Origin: Streptomyces musisoli
GTDB lineage: Bacteria > Actinomycetota > Actinomycetes > Streptomycetales > Streptomycetaceae
Assembly (NCBI RefSeq): GCF_016741855.1
Contig: NZ_JAERRH010000011.1
Span: forward strand, 124,001-188,000
DNA length: 64,000 bases
Direction of reading: 5' to 3'
In this document: positions 41,972 through 47,989 of the stretch, one piece after another
Position numbering within the stretch: position 1 is the first letter of the stretch
How the letters are laid out: each line of letters starts with the position of its first letter
Made by a program: the position numbers and the translations under genes
Notes under the pieces: generated by a model
What the model was told of the DNA's origin: nothing
Databases searched by the model: none
Seen by the model: the letters and a program-made list of their open reading frames with translations, nothing else

Positions 41972-42559
41972 TCATCGTGCGTCTTCGCACGTAGAGGCGG
42001 CGCGACCGTACCAAAACGTTCCCTCGCCGTAACGACGGGAGCGGATCGGCTCGAAGCCCTCGGGCCACCGGAATTCGCCACCTCTGGTGCTGCGCTCCAC
42101 GGTGACGAGGGCTTCGTCGGCGAGCCAGCGTTCCGAGCGGAGTGTGAGCAGGATCTCGCGAAGATCGTCGTCGGTGACGGCGTACGGGGGGTCGAGGAAG
42201 ACCAGGTCGTACGGCTCGGCGGGGGGTGCGGTTCTGATGACTTGTTCCGCTTTGCCCGCCCGCACCTCGGCGCCGGGCAGGCCCAGGTTCTTCACGTTCT
42301 CCCGGACGGTTTTCGCCGCGCGGGCGTCGGCCTCCACCAGGAGGGTGTGGCCCGCGCCCCGGGACAGGGCCTCCAGGCCCACGGCTCCGGATCCCGCGTA
42401 GAGGTCGAGGACCCGTTCGCCCTCCAGGGGGCCGCCGAGCAGGGACTGCCAGGTGGAGAAGAGACCTTCGCGCGCGCGGTCCGATGTCGGCCGGGTTCCG
42501 GTGCCGGGCGGTACTGAGAGGCGCCGTCCGCCTGCCCGGCCGGCGATCACGCGGGTCAT
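41972..42559 (-). CDS. rsmD: 16S rRNA (guanine-966-N2)-methyltransferase RsmD
   Basis: A 195-residue class I methyltransferase acting on G966 of 16S rRNA in the 30S subunit. It starts [19 protein letters not shown], with [13 protein letters not shown], motif [17 protein letters not shown] and motif IV FLDPPYA. The ATG at 42559 has GGAGAAGGA seven bases upstream. It is coupled or nearly so to coaD, the usual neighbour, and is separated from recG by a 14-bp hairpin. Confidence 0.95.
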
Positions 42560-42624
42560 CTCTGGGTCCTTCTCCGTGGGCGGCTTTACCCAGTCAGTCT
42601 GGCAGGCCCGCGGGGGTGGGCGCC

Positions 42625-42660
42625 CGGGCGCCGCGGGCGGGTCCCGGCCCGCGGCGCCCG
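42625..42660 (-). terminator. strong hairpin between recG and rsmD
   Basis: Fourteen-bp perfect stem CGGGCGCCGCGGGC (42625-42638) with 42647-42660, eight-base loop, 58 bases past the recG stop. A 22-bp direct repeat (42666-42687 and 42688-42709) lies between it and recG. Confidence 0.65.
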
Positions 42661-42717
42661 GTCGCGCCGTCCGCCGTGCCCGGGCGAGCCGTCCGCCGTG
42701 CCCGGGCGAGGTCCGCC

Positions 42718-45700
42718 TCAGCCCTTTTCCAGGTACTGCTCCCGTTCCTCGTCCACCAGGGCGTCCAGGGCCGTGCGCAGGCCGGGGAGCCGCTCCAGTT
42801 CCGGGTCGGCCGCGACGAGCGCCGCCGCCTCCTGGCGCGCCTCCGCGATGACCTCCTCGTCCTCGATGACCGCGAGGACCCGCAGGCTGGAGCGGGCGCC
42901 GGACTGGGCCTGGCCGAGGACGTCGCCCTCGCGGCGCTGTTCGAGGTCGATGCGGGAGAGTTCGAAGCCGTCGAGGGTGGAGGCGACGGCGTTCAGGCGC
43001 TGGCGGGCCGCGCTCGCCTCGGGCATCTCCGAGACCAGGAGGCACAGGCCGGGGGCGGAGCCGCGGCCGACCCGGCCCCGCAGCTGGTGCAGCTGGGAGA
43101 CGCCGAAGCGGTCGGCGTCCATGATGACCATGGCCGTGGCGTTGGGGACGTTGACGCCGACCTCGATGACGGTGGTGGCGACCAGGACGTCCGTCTCGCC
43201 GGCCGCGAAGCGGCGCATCACGGCGTCCTTGTCGTCGGGGTGCATTCGGCCGTGCAGGACTTCGACCTCGAGACCCTGGAGGGGGCCGCGGCCCAGCTGG
43301 CCGGCCACGTCGAGGACGGCCAGCGGCGGGCGCTTCTCCGCCTCGTCCTCGGGGGACTTCTTCCTGCCGGCCTTCTTGGGGTCGTCGTCCTCGTCGCCGA
43401 TGCGGGGGCAGACGACGTACGCCTGGTGGCCGGACTCCACCTCCTCGCGCACCCGTTCCCAGGCTCTGGCCAGGAAGTGGGGTTTGTCGGCGGCCGGGAC
43501 GACGTGGCTGGCGATCGGGGAGCGGCCCGCCGGGAGCTGGTCCAGGACGGAGGTCTCCAGGTCGCCGAAGACCGTCATGGCGACCGTGCGCGGGATGGGT
43601 GTCGCGGTCATGACGAGGAGGTGCGGGGGCTGCTTGCCCTTGCCGCGCAGGGCGTCGCGCTGTTCCACGCCGAAGCGGTGCTGTTCGTCGACCACGACCA
43701 GGCCGAGGTCGTGGAACTGGACCTTGTCCTCGATCAGGGCGTGGGTGCCGATGACGATGCCGGCCTCGCCGGTGGCCAGGTCCAGCAGGGCCTGGCGGCG
43801 GGCGGCCATGCCCATGGAGCCGGTGAGCAGGACGACCTTGGTGGAGTGCTCGGCCCCGCCGAGCATGCCTCCCTCAGCCAACTCGCCCATCATCTCGGTG
43901 ACGGAGCGGTGGTGCTGCTGGGCGAGGACCTCGGTGGGCGCGAGCATGGCCGCCTGACCGCCCGCGTCGACGACGGCGAGCATGGCGCGCAGGGCCACCA
44001 TCGTGTTGTGCGTCACCGCGAAGTGGTCGGTGACATAGGCACGGCTGGGGTGCGCGACGCTGATGCACTGGACCGGCTTGCGCCCCACGTACTCGACCGC
44101 CCGGATGCCACGCCGGAAAGTGTTGTACTTCGGCCGCGGGCCGACGCGCTCTGCCTTGCGGGTGAGCCTGAAGGGGGCGTACTCGTCCGGCAGCGCCACA
44201 GAGACGGTGAAGGCGGACTTCTTCCGCAGGATGCGCGCCCGGCCGCCCAGCGACCGCACAAGCCAGGCGACGTCCTCCGCCAGCCTCACCGAGGCCGAGC
44301 ACAGGGAAATGCTCATGCCGTTTGCGTCGACAGTGCCGTCGGTGTCCAAGAGGCCCTGCAGGAGAGCGAGACGGTTCTTGATCGATGTGTTCTTGAATTC
44401 TTCGGGGATGAACTTGCCGTGCGACGTCCGGCCCCACAGGCCCAGATCACGCAAGATCTGAATGACGGGATTGCGGGCTCCGCCCGACCGCTGTGTCAGC
44501 TGAATCGTGTAGTCACATCGGGAACCAGTTACCGGAACGAGCCGGCACTCAGGCCCCACAGAAGCTGCCACCGCGTCACGGATCTCTGTGTCGATGGTGG
44601 AAATCCGCAGGTTGTGCCTGAACGAACCGTCACCGAGCAGGAGCCCGAACAGATAGGGGTCGAGGGGAATTACGGAGTCGTCACCCAGGTCCACAGGAGT
44701 CGCCGCCGGGAGGTACCACTTCGACGATCCGTTGGCCTTGAACAGGTCGTGACGGATTTCCCGTGTGGTCATCACCTTGGGCGGCTGCCCGCGATGCCAG
44801 GCGCAACTCGTGCCGACGATCCAGAGGTGTTCGTCGTCGCATTCCACGGAACTGTCATCGGAAAGCACGATGCGCCACACATCTCGCTCGCCTTGCGGAA
44901 AGACTCCATCGATGAGGGCAATCTCTCCGGCGGGCACAACGACCTCGTCCCCCACCTGCATGTCACCCATCCGCCGAAAACCCGACGGTGTCAGCACGAG
45001 CGAGTCCAGCGGCTGCGCCTTGCCCGAACCGACCTCTCCCTGGAGCAGGCGGTGCATCGGGTGTGCGGTCGCCAGGTCGTCGAAGATCTCCCTGGACACC
45101 TTCTGCTGGCCCTCGGTGAGGGTGAAGGGCAGCCGGTCGTCGAAGGCCGTGAGGATGCCGTCGGGCTTCGGCCGGCGCGGGACGGCCGGGAGCAAGGTGT
45201 CGGCGTGCCGGCGCCGGGCCAGGGCGACCTGGAGGACGAAGGCCTCGTCCCACTTCAGCCGGGCGCGGGCGTCGGCGATGTCGGCCTTGGTGTGCGGCCG
45301 GTGGATCTTGTGCAGGGCCTCGGGCAGGGGGACCAGCCCGCGGCCCGAGCGGAGGGAGTCGGGGAGGGGGTCGAGGGCCTCCTGGGCGCTGGGGAGCACC
45401 GTCTGGACCGCCTTGCCGATCTTCCAGGACTCCAGCTTGGCCGTGGCGGGGTAGATGGGGATCAGGGCACCGGCCCAGGTCTCGACCGCTTCGGCACTGT
45501 CACCTTGCAGCAACTCGTAAGCGGGGTGGGCGAGTTGGAGGCGCCGGTTGAAGACGGAGACCTTGCCGGCGAACATCGCGCGGGTGCCCGGCAGCAGCTC
45601 CTTGTGGGGTTTGTGGACGCCGTTGCCGAAGAAGACGAGCTGGAGCCGGCCGCTGCCGTCGGTGATGGTGACTTCCAGGCGCTGGCCCTTGCCGCGCGGT

Positions 45701-45951
45701 GCCTTGGCCGAGGCGAAGGTGTGCAGGCGGGCGTCGGCGACCTGGGCGACCACCGTGACGTGCTCGTCCATGGGCAGGTCGGCGAGGTGGGTGAGCTGGC
45801 CACGCTCCTCGTATCTGCGCGGGTAGTGGTGCAGGAGGTCACCGACGGTGTGCAGGCCGAGGTGCTCGGCCATCACCTTCGCGGTGGCGGGGCCGAGCAC
45901 TGACTTCAGGGGCTGCTTCAGGGGTTCTTGCAGTGCGGGCACGAGATCCAT
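42718..45951 (-). CDS. recG: ATP-dependent DNA helicase RecG, intein-containing
   Basis: RecG remodels stalled replication forks and branched DNA. The uninterrupted host protein would be 739 residues: wedge/OB domain (EERGQLTHLADLP, TVVAQVADAR), helicase motif I split as GEVGSGK and T, motif II DEQHRFG, motif III TATPIPRT, and the C-terminal QLRGRVGRG and LDGFELSRIDLEQR elements. The full frame is 1077 codons because a 338-codon intein (44005-45018) sits between Lys311 and Thr650. Unspliced protein would have a broken ATP-binding loop, so activity should depend on splicing. The ATG at 45951 begins the usual MDLVPALQEPL; no Shine-Dalgarno is seen. It is divergent from the HSP90-like gene. Confidence 0.95.
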   Translation of the reverse strand: MDLVPALQEPLKQPLKSVLGPATAKVMAEHLGLHTVGDLLHHYPRRYEERGQLTHLADLPMDEHVTVVAQVADARLHTFASAKAPRGKGQRLEVTITDGSGRLQLVFFGNGVHKPHKELLPGTRAMFAGKVSVFNRRLQLAHPAYELLQGDSAEAVETWAGALIPIYPATAKLESWKIGKAVQTVLPSAQEALDPLPDSLRSGRGLVPLPEALHKIHRPHTKADIADARARLKWDEAFVLQVALARRRHADTLLPAVPRRPKPDGILTAFDDRLPFTLTEGQQKVSREIFDDLATAHPMHRLLQGEVGSGKAQPLDSLVLTPSGFRRMGDMQVGDEVVVPAGEIALIDGVFPQGERDVWRIVLSDDSSVECDDEHLWIVGTSCAWHRGQPPKVMTTREIRHDLFKANGSSKWYLPAATPVDLGDDSVIPLDPYLFGLLLGDGSFRHNLRISTIDTEIRDAVAASVGPECRLVPVTGSRCDYTIQLTQRSGGARNPVIQILRDLGLWGRTSHGKFIPEEFKNTSIKNRLALLQGLLDTDGTVDANGMSISLCSASVRLAEDVAWLVRSLGGRARILRKKSAFTVSVALPDEYAPFRLTRKAERVGPRPKYNTFRRGIRAVEYVGRKPVQCISVAHPSRAYVTDHFAVTHNTMVALRAMLAVVDAGGQAAMLAPTEVLAQQHHRSVTEMMGELAEGGMLGGAEHSTKVVLLTGSMGMAARRQALLDLATGEAGIVIGTHALIEDKVQFHDLGLVVVDEQHRFGVEQRDALRGKGKQPPHLLVMTATPIPRTVAMTVFGDLETSVLDQLPAGRSPIASHVVPAADKPHFLARAWERVREEVESGHQAYVVCPRIGDEDDDPKKAGRKKSPEDEAEKRPPLAVLDVAGQLGRGPLQGLEVEVLHGRMHPDDKDAVMRRFAAGETDVLVATTVIEVGVNVPNATAMVIMDADRFGVSQLHQLRGRVGRGSAPGLCLLVSEMPEASAARQRLNAVASTLDGFELSRIDLEQRREGDVLGQAQSGARSSLRVLAVIEDEEVIAEARQEAAALVAADPELERLPGLRTALDALVDEEREQYLEKG
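44005..45018 (-). other. class 3 intein with LAGLIDADG endonuclease in the RecG P-loop
   Basis: A 338-residue protein intron between GSGK and T of RecG motif I. It begins AQPLDSLVLT, so residue 1 is Ala, not Cys or Ser. Block B reads DDEHLWIVG, with His two residues before Trp. Block F has Cys in KPVQCISVAHP. Block G is FAVTHN followed by Thr. Trp at B:12, Cys at F:4 and Thr at G:5 are the class 3 (WCT) marks, whose branched intermediate forms on the block F Cys. Two LAGLIDADG-like motifs, YLFGLLLGDGS and LALLQGLLDTDG, indicate a homing endonuclease. Three 60-base lines counted by hand are 53-63% GC against 77% in a flanking recG line, a sign of transfer. Confidence 0.93.
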
Positions 45952-46150
45952 TGCACACCACGGCACTGACAATGCCGTAGACGCCGCCCTGCTCCTTCTC
46001 GGCGAGGTGCCGTAAACATCAGGGAAACTCCTGGTCAGGGTGGCTGATCCGGATCTAGGATGGCGCGCTCCGGCCATCCTTCGCGGTCACCGCCCCGCCG
46101 GGACCGCCCGACCCCGCGCCGCTCGCACCTCCCCCTCCGGCGCAGTGACG

Positions 46151-47989
46151 ATGGACTCCCAGACCTCACAGGCATCCCAGCCATCCCAGTCACCTCAACC
46201 ACCTCATACGTTCCAGGTCGACCTGCGTGGTCTGGTGGACCTGCTCTCCCATCACCTCTACTCCAGCCCCAGGGTCTACCTGCGCGAGCTGCTGCAGAAC
46301 GCCGTGGACGCCATCACCGCCCGGCGGGCCGCCGACCCCGCCGCCCCGGCCCGGGTGCGGCTGTACGCGGTGGACGGCGGGCTGCGGGTGGAGGACACCG
46401 GTGTCGGGCTCACCGAGCCGGACGTGCACAGCCTGCTGGCGACCATCGGCCGCAGCTCCAAGCGGGCCGAGGGCCTTCAGGCGGCCCGGTCGGACTTCCT
46501 CGGCCAGTTCGGCATCGGGCTGCTCGCCTGCTTCGTGGTCGCCGAGCGGATCCGGGTCGTCAGCCGCAGCGCCCGGGCGCCCGAGGCCCCGCCGGTGGAG
46601 TGGACGGCCCGGGACGACGGCTCGTACACCGTGCGGACGCTGCCCGGCGCGGAGCGGCCCGAGCCGGGTACGACCGTGTACCTGACGGCGCGGGCCGGGG
46701 CGGCCGAGTGGCTCGCGCCCGAGCGGGTCCGCGCGTTGGCCCGGGACTTCGGCTCCCTGCTGCCTTACGACGTCCGGGTCGGTGACGAGCCGGTCACCGA
46801 GCTGCCCGCACCCTGGGACCGCGCCCATCCGAGTCCGGCCGGCCGGAGGGTGGCGCTGGCCCGGCACTGCCAGGAGCTGTTCGGGTTCACCCCGCTGGAC
46901 TCGATCGACCTGGGGGTGCCGCTGGCCGGGGTCCGCGGGGTGGCGTACGTGCTGCCGTCGGCGGTCAGTCCCGCCCAGCGGGCGACGCACCGCGTGCACC
47001 TGAAGGGCATGCTGCTCACCGAGCGGGCCGAACAGCTGCTGCCGGACTGGGCGTTCTTCGTGCGCTGCGTCCTGGACACCGACAGCCTGCGGCCGACCGC
47101 CTCGCGCGAGTCGCTGTACGAGGACGAGACGCTGGCCGCCGTGCGGGAGGCGCTGGGCGAAAGGATTCGGTCCTGGCTCACCGGGCTCGCCGCCGGTGAT
47201 CCGGAGCGGCTGTCGGCCTTCCTCGCCGTGCACCACCTGGGCGTGAAGTCCCTGGCCCGGCACGACACGGAGATGCTGCGCACGATGCTGCCGTGGCTGC
47301 CGTTCGAGACGACCGACGGGCAGATCTGTCTGGAGGAGTTCGCGCAGCGGCACCCGGTGGTGCACTTCACGCGGACGGTCGAGGAGTACCGGCAGGTCGC
47401 GCCGATCGCCTCGGCGCAGGGCATCGGGGTGGTCAACGGCGGCTACACGTACGACAGCGAGCTGGTCGAGGCGCTGCCGCGGGTGCGGCCGGGCACGGTG
47501 GTCGCCGAACTCGACGCGGACACCGTGACCGCGCACCTGGACGCGGTCGACCCGGGCGAGGAGCTGGCGCTGTCCGGGTTCCTGGCCGCGGCCCGGGACC
47601 GGCTCGACCCGCTGGGCTGCGACGTCGTCCTGCGGGCCTTCCACCCGCTGTCCGTGCCCGCACTGCACCTGGACGACCGGGCCGCCCGGCACGAACAGGC
47701 CCGCGCGGCGGCCGAGGAACAGGCCGACGACCTGTGGGCGGGCATCCTGGGCTCCCTGCGCGGCAGCGCCCCCCGCGCGCGTCTGGTGCTGAACCATCTC
47801 AACCCGCTGGTCCGGCGCATCGGTTCGCTCGGCGAACCGGAACTGATCGGCACCGCGACCGAGTCGCTCTACGGGCAGGCGCTGCTGATGGCGCAGCGCC
47901 CGCTGCGGCCTGCCGACTCGGCACTGCTCAACCGGGCGTTCATCGGGCTGCTCGAATGGGCGACCCACGGGGAGGGGTACGGACGATGA
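46151..47989 (+). CDS. HSP90-like GHKL ATPase
   Basis: A 612-residue HSP90-family protein, not the canonical HtpG. The N-terminal GHKL fold is complete: YLRELLQNAVDAITARR with the catalytic Glu and the Mg-binding Asn, DTGVGLT, SDFLGQFGIGLLACF, and GTTVYLTAR. The middle domain has LKGMLLTERAEQLLPDW and TASRESLYED. The C-terminal dimerisation part is diverged. It is an ATP-driven chaperone by family; the client is unknown. The ATG at 46151 (MDSQTSQASQ) has no clear Shine-Dalgarno and a GTG two codons upstream is possible. Its TGA overlaps the ATG of the TPR gene (ATGA), so the two are co-translated. Confidence 0.88.
   Translation: MDSQTSQASQPSQSPQPPHTFQVDLRGLVDLLSHHLYSSPRVYLRELLQNAVDAITARRAADPAAPARVRLYAVDGGLRVEDTGVGLTEPDVHSLLATIGRSSKRAEGLQAARSDFLGQFGIGLLACFVVAERIRVVSRSARAPEAPPVEWTARDDGSYTVRTLPGAERPEPGTTVYLTARAGAAEWLAPERVRALARDFGSLLPYDVRVGDEPVTELPAPWDRAHPSPAGRRVALARHCQELFGFTPLDSIDLGVPLAGVRGVAYVLPSAVSPAQRATHRVHLKGMLLTERAEQLLPDWAFFVRCVLDTDSLRPTASRESLYEDETLAAVREALGERIRSWLTGLAAGDPERLSAFLAVHHLGVKSLARHDTEMLRTMLPWLPFETTDGQICLEEFAQRHPVVHFTRTVEEYRQVAPIASAQGIGVVNGGYTYDSELVEALPRVRPGTVVAELDADTVTAHLDAVDPGEELALSGFLAAARDRLDPLGCDVVLRAFHPLSVPALHLDDRAARHEQARAAAEEQADDLWAGILGSLRGSAPRARLVLNHLNPLVRRIGSLGEPELIGTATESLYGQALLMAQRPLRPADSALLNRAFIGLLEWATHGEGYGR

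Follow-up and report, generated by a model that had tools for sequence, protein, structure and literature searches.

The window analysed here is a 64,000-nucleotide stretch of a Streptomyces musisoli contig (NZ_JAERRH010000011.1, positions 124,001 to 188,000), and it carries a recG open reading frame of 1119 codons on the minus strand. Within this frame lies an in-frame insert of 338 codons with no stop, which takes up recG codons 354-691 and falls exactly between the Lys and the Thr of the Walker A motif GSGKT. The junctions read LLQGEVGSGK / AQPLDS...FAVTHN / TMVALRAML, and joining the extein flanks gives an uninterrupted RecG. Translation of recG may in fact begin at the Met of codon 43 (base 45951). 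The features are as follows.

42718..46077, minus strand: recG open reading frame with the intein, 1119 codons plus stop; RecG models match it in two stretches
45019..45951, minus strand: N-extein of RecG, from the later, putative start Met to ...GEVGSGK
45019..45030, minus strand: Walker A codons GSGK, abutting the insert
44005..45018, minus strand: class 3 intein, 338 codons, Ala1 to Asn338
44821..44838, minus strand: block B core DDEHLW (Asp61, His64, Trp66), all three residues present in 71/71 genus genomes
44626..44652, minus strand: first LAGLIDADG helix, LFGLLLGDG, acid Asp130; dN/dS 0.10 over residues 118-135 in acid-intact pairs
44335..44364, minus strand: second LAGLIDADG helix, LLQGLLDTDG, acid Asp227; dN/dS 0.15 over residues 206-228 in acid-intact pairs
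44065..44067, minus strand: Cys318 at position 4 of block F, the predicted first nucleophile, kept in 71/71
44005..44013, minus strand: Thr336-His337-Asn338, the block G residues that close the intein, kept in 71/71
44002..44004, minus strand: +1 codon (Thr+1), directly after the intein
42718..44004, minus strand: C-extein of RecG with stop codon

RecG profiles matched the whole frame (TIGR00643, 638 bits; NF008167, 1120 bits against a cut-off of 995), each in one stretch on either side of the insert, and the wedge, helicase domains and domain 3 of the host protein (PF17191, PF00270, PF00271 and PF19833) scored above cut-off. A profile search of the same genome found no second recG. The sole other strong RecG-profile match there (C126, 369 bits, profile positions 227-608, in a 1200-residue frame) is read as a putative Mfd, and the RecG-site intein is present once. 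The original prediction, that RecG is the host and that its gene is split at GSGK/T by a 338-codon in-frame insert, was borne out by the profiles, the joining of the flanks and about 318 Streptomyces genomes in which the gene is uninterrupted. Of the two frames neighbouring recG (46040-47986, plus strand, and 41972-43042, minus strand), one matches PF13589, an HSP90-like ATPase domain, and one matches PF03602, which we take to be an RsmD-type methyltransferase.

Class 3 inteins are defined in a passage of PMC5222942 by Trp at B:12, Cys at F:4 and Thr at G:5, together with His at B:10, a His-Asn pair in block G and a +1 residue that is Ser or Thr; a passage of PMC6195587 adds DxxH as a class 3 motif. 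The RecG intein has a non-nucleophilic Ala1, the block B sequence D61-D62-E63-H64-L65-W66 with Trp66 two residues past His64, C318, T336-H337-N338 and Thr+1. Ala1, His64, Trp66, Cys318, Thr336, His337 and Asn338 were unchanged in all 119 distinct sequences (window included). The same seven residues and Asp61 were kept in 71/71 genus genomes, where every insert is in frame, and the +1 residue was Thr in 112/112 loci of one set and 41/41 of another. LAGLIDADG helices carry an acid at position 8, and both helices of the window copy, at residues 123-131 and 219-228, retain it (D130 and D227).

The insert matched the Pfam families LAGLIDADG_3 (PF14528, E 4.5e-9) and Hom_end (PF05204, E 4e-6), both above cut-off. 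For the splicing domain, a search of PDB sequences gave gp41-1 (E 3e-7) and the class 3 intein of Msm DnaB (E 1.3e-4). An AlphaFold model of the intein, built from 53 rows, had a mean pLDDT of 91.7 and a pTM of 0.90; it superposed on PI-SceI (1jva) with Z 26.9 over 324 residues (rmsd 3.5) and on the Msm DnaB class 3 intein (6bs8) with Z 20.1 over 123 residues (rmsd 1.6 A), and the I-DmoI fold was matched as well. By its residues the insert is a class 3 intein, with the Hint fold found in the predicted model. Homology and profile checks thus recovered both the Hint fold and the DOD endonuclease, as had been predicted of this P-loop insert from the W-C-T positions and the LAGLIDADG-like motifs. 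PI-SceI shares the two-domain layout of Hint and LAGLIDADG parts with the RecG intein but is larger and sits in yeast VMA1; it is a class 1 intein with Cys1.

Among known class 3 inteins, Msm DnaBi1 and Mle DnaB have the same class residues as the RecG intein, according to passages of PMC5222942 and PMC6195587. Msm DnaBi1 also shares DxxH, a P-loop insertion site and the Hint fold (6bs8). Both are mini-inteins without endonuclease in DnaB, whereas the RecG intein has one. The +1 residue is Ser in Msm DnaBi1 and Thr in the RecG intein, and the redox residue Cys48 of Msm is Val in the RecG intein.

A search of 392 Streptomyces genomes with the intein and with the joined 140-residue RecG flanks found the recG site occupied in 71 and empty in about 318. 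No recG was located in the remaining three (G001, G050 and G099), which were excluded, so that occupancy is about 18% (71/389). About 150 of the empty rows, as a lower bound, were contiguous flank matches among the matches listed; the remaining rows were called empty by their best flank E-value, which is about 1e-51 or lower for empty sites and 1e-30 to 1e-42 for occupied ones. Three genomes that appeared to have odd recG sites (G119, G121 and G375), with flanks close together in differing frames, were counted as empty because the flanks leave no room for an intein. The occupied copies comprise 45 of full length (336-339 residues) and 26 deleted forms (247-327 residues).

Streptomyces supplied 79 of the best 80 of 136 relatives of the intein from named genomes, and Actinacidiphila the other. 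The search was also extended to 150 genomes from the family and 396 from the phylum. RecG-site copies were found in two further genera of the family: one (L239, 75% identity) was confirmed by sequence, and the other (G408) is known from split matches in a 1082-residue frame only. Two more distant copies, at the same Lys/Thr site and in the same clade as the Streptomyces RecG inteins, belong to a genome from a different class (L254, 58% identity) and to a RecG-like helicase of a Rhodococcus plasmid (L275, 48% identity). The 13 RecG-site rows placed in the tree formed one clade (support 100/99). The intein-bearing plasmid helicase (L275:1597-5277) adjoins a tyrosine recombinase on a 300-kb replicon, and this plasmid is a possible vehicle of intein transfer.

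In a RecG tree that combined the 71 occupied rows with 70 chosen empty ones, occupancy changed at least 25 times, and 17 of these changes were forced by strong branches; the empty rows were the 30 best and 40 picked from the listed rows, and are not a random sample. In this tree the window genome pairs with S. echinatus, its nearest relative, which has the intein at the same locus, and the three rows that follow are empty. For the 45 full-length copies the RecG tree was rejected by the intein data by 982 log units, and the intein tree by the RecG data by 682. Controls with the two parts of RecG gave smaller losses between the parts than against the intein: on the N part the intein tree lost 441 log units and the C-part tree 198, and on the C part the intein tree lost 311 and the N-part tree 119. 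The two RecG parts nevertheless rejected each other's trees (AU p 3e-12 and 2e-5), so that ordinary recombination explains part of the conflict between intein and RecG. Robinson-Foulds distances were 54/84 between the RecG parts, and 60 and 66 between these parts and the intein. There is thus background recombination, with extra conflict of the intein on top.

Fourfold sites gave instances of alleles out of step with their host gene. Loci L010 and L014 differ at 33/323 fourfold sites in RecG and at 101/170 in the intein, which indicates an allele swap, and L013 and L014 show the reverse pattern (RecG 77/301, intein 20/193). Between the window genome and S. echinatus the intein differs at 7/198 fourfold sites and RecG at 45/317. 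This hint of a late transfer between the two is weakened by neighbouring DNA stretches, some of which are as similar as the intein.

Base composition had been put forward originally as evidence of recent transfer. In 500-base windows the GC content was 0.61-0.66 inside the insert and 0.67-0.77 around it. With rows counted irrespective of kinship, however, mean GC3 was 0.813 for the 45 full-length inteins against 0.949 for their own RecG, with 0/45 reaching the RecG value; for the deleted inteins it was 0.904, with 10/26 reaching it. Because every full-length copy in the genus sample (45/45) has a low GC3, low GC marks the endonuclease-bearing lineage and not the S. musisoli genome, and the argument from GC to recency was rejected as it had been made. 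The class, the endonuclease, the P-loop site and the RecG host in the original prediction stand. Low GC is shared across the intein family, fades once the endonuclease is lost and leaves the arrival in the window genome undated; it fits continued movement, and patchiness together with tree conflict is a better sign of mobility.

Decay of the endonuclease was visible among the occupied copies. Both acids were kept in 38/45 full-length and 7/26 deleted copies; since 7/45 full-length copies lack an acid, length alone is no proof of activity. All deletions of at least 20 residues fell within 131-203, between the two LAGLIDADG helices, and smaller gaps occurred elsewhere (for example at 72-76 and 280-296). 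The ends of the deletions vary by lineage (for example 150-174, 154-198, 145-179 and 135-200), which points to several separate losses of the endonuclease. In one RecG clade of 12 rows (support 100), every row has an endonuclease-deleted intein.

Selection was estimated from nine disjoint pairs each of acid-intact and deleted forms. The dN/dS of the endonuclease was 0.26 in acid-intact and 0.62 in deleted pairs, that of the splicing part 0.155 and 0.34, and that of RecG 0.12 and 0.21, respectively. The first LAGLIDADG helix rose from 0.10 to 0.75, and the second from 0.15 to 0.32; by segment, the second helix of the deleted forms (0.32) compares with 0.22-0.30 for the splicing domain. In the deleted inteins (L148-L173) the second helix was constrained even where its Asp is lost, and it seems to keep a structural role in these copies.

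Taken from the sequences, the insert would be a bifunctional class 3 intein that homes, with its cycle at several stages across the genus, a reading to which we give a probability of about 0.92. By the chemistry conserved in this class, Cys318 would attack the Lys-Ala1 bond and take the N-extein, Thr+1 would take it over, and cyclisation of Asn338 with the help of His337 would free the intein, so that the RecG halves would join and GSGKT would be restored. Before splicing, RecG would be without its Walker A motif and should lack ATPase activity, as a passage of PMC6195587 states of RadA that a P-loop intein stops its ATPase. The evolutionary pattern suggests that the LAGLIDADG domain would cut empty recG alleles and that repair would copy the intein in. 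Across the genus, empty sites would be invaded, the endonuclease would decay by point changes and deletions, and loss would follow, with the splicing part expected to stay intact because RecG needs it. The empty sites, the patchiness, the tree conflict and the pattern of selection are all consistent with such cutting and homing.

Other readings were weighed against this one. The window copy could be spliced yet immobile, a passenger with a dead endonuclease that is inherited with the chromosome; its presence at the same locus in S. echinatus and the loss of an acid in 7/45 full-length copies would agree with this. We regard this as rather unlikely, given that the window copy has both acids, that similar endonucleases are under purifying selection (dN/dS 0.26; helices 0.10-0.15) and that the next three closest relatives sampled have empty sites. 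Far less credible is a degenerate insert that has lost splicing and left RecG dead, since every splicing residue and the frame are kept, purifying selection acts on RecG itself (acid-intact pairs, dN/dS 0.12) and the profile search of the genome found no second recG.

A further reading makes splicing conditional and of service to the host: RecG would be held off until a signal, such as a redox change at Cys318, and fork repair would thereby be gated. According to a passage of PMC6195587, the class 3 P-loop intein of Msm DnaB is halted by oxidation of its block F Cys, with Cys48 forming the redox switch in DnaBi1. In the RecG intein, Cys60 lies beside the block B Asp and is kept in 69/71; apart from Cys318, no other Cys of the window copy is near-invariant, and the clade of 12 endonuclease-deleted inteins indicates that dead forms persist. 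However, the position of the Msm partner Cys48 aligns with Val47 and is Val in 70/71 copies and Ile in the other; about 318/389 relatives manage without any intein; and inteins that have lost the endonuclease should persist in any case if they are seldom removed exactly. A switch already at work is improbable to us. Gating of RecG by splicing, which the original prediction had raised, is possible and finds no support here. The constraint on the second helix in deleted forms and the near-invariant Cys60 beside the active site would also suit a RecG intein that is turning into a host switch, in which Cys60 and Cys318 would form the pair and splicing would answer to redox or DNA stress; we hold this to be an outside chance, if anything smaller than that of a finished switch. 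One site in one genus offers a natural series in which close relatives carry intact, acid-dead, deleted or empty alleles, so that the rate of homing, the decay of the endonuclease and whatever splicing costs or brings to a repair helicase are open to test by simple allele exchange in harmless soil bacteria.

RecG is listed as an intein host in Table 1 of a 2018 review, where the entry gives no organism, site or class in the portion consulted (PMC5874633). Insertion between Lys and Thr is described as a classic P-loop insertion in a passage of PMC5050341, a paper on mycobacteriophage inteins from which the word RecG is absent. The literature search found no paper that joins a class 3 intein with RecG, and titles and abstract openings in the literature searched, whose scope left out most subscription papers, indicated no Streptomyces RecG intein. 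Class 3 P-loop inteins and RecG as a host are therefore already known, and the Streptomyces RecG intein is a further case.

Related inteins occur at other sites. Mycobacterial PhoH inteins are termed class 3 in a passage of PMC6195587, and PhoH inteins of Streptomyces and other actinobacteria are 33-41% identical to the RecG intein over the best stretch. Like the RecG intein they have Ala1 in all rows except L267 and L273 (Ser) and the THN end in all rows except L267, which is incomplete. Unlike it they lie at the site IEVAPLAYMRGR/TLNDAF or near variants, and the nine rows placed in the tree form a clade of their own (100/100). Inteins at this site are common in Streptomyces and present across the phylum (L185, L186, L193, L196, L243-L244, L246-L250, L252-L253, L255-L265, L267-L268 and L273-L274); the PhoH identity was assigned by Pfam for L185 and by shared flanks for the others.

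Phages carry similar inteins in the P-loops of other hosts (SF2/SNF2, DarB-like and others). Five copies, 36-40% identical to the RecG intein, start with AQPL in 4/5, end with THN in 5/5 and lie at GK/T in 4/5; in the tree, three of them branch close to the RecG clade, with a support of just 93/91. At least 80% of the RecG-intein query was covered in 528 of the 767 phage records with a match, and every matching record, phage (767/767) or plasmid (41/41), was less than 60% identical, so that these collections point to no direct donor. Among viral contigs, 24 stretches matched a pattern for close relatives of the intein, and none codes for one.

In Streptomyces, related inteins were also seen in a large VirD4-like conjugal transfer protein (L187:7186-12318, L194 and L197), the family being assigned by test for L187 and by shared flanks for the other two; the L197 intein seems to start with Cys. 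Others lie in a dCTP deaminase (L266), a CHAP/peptidoglycan-binding protein (L241) and a UvrD-like helicase (L192). In Salmonella phage SA002 (L284), the annotation divides an intein-bearing SF2 helicase between two genes, although the intein reads through with no stop.
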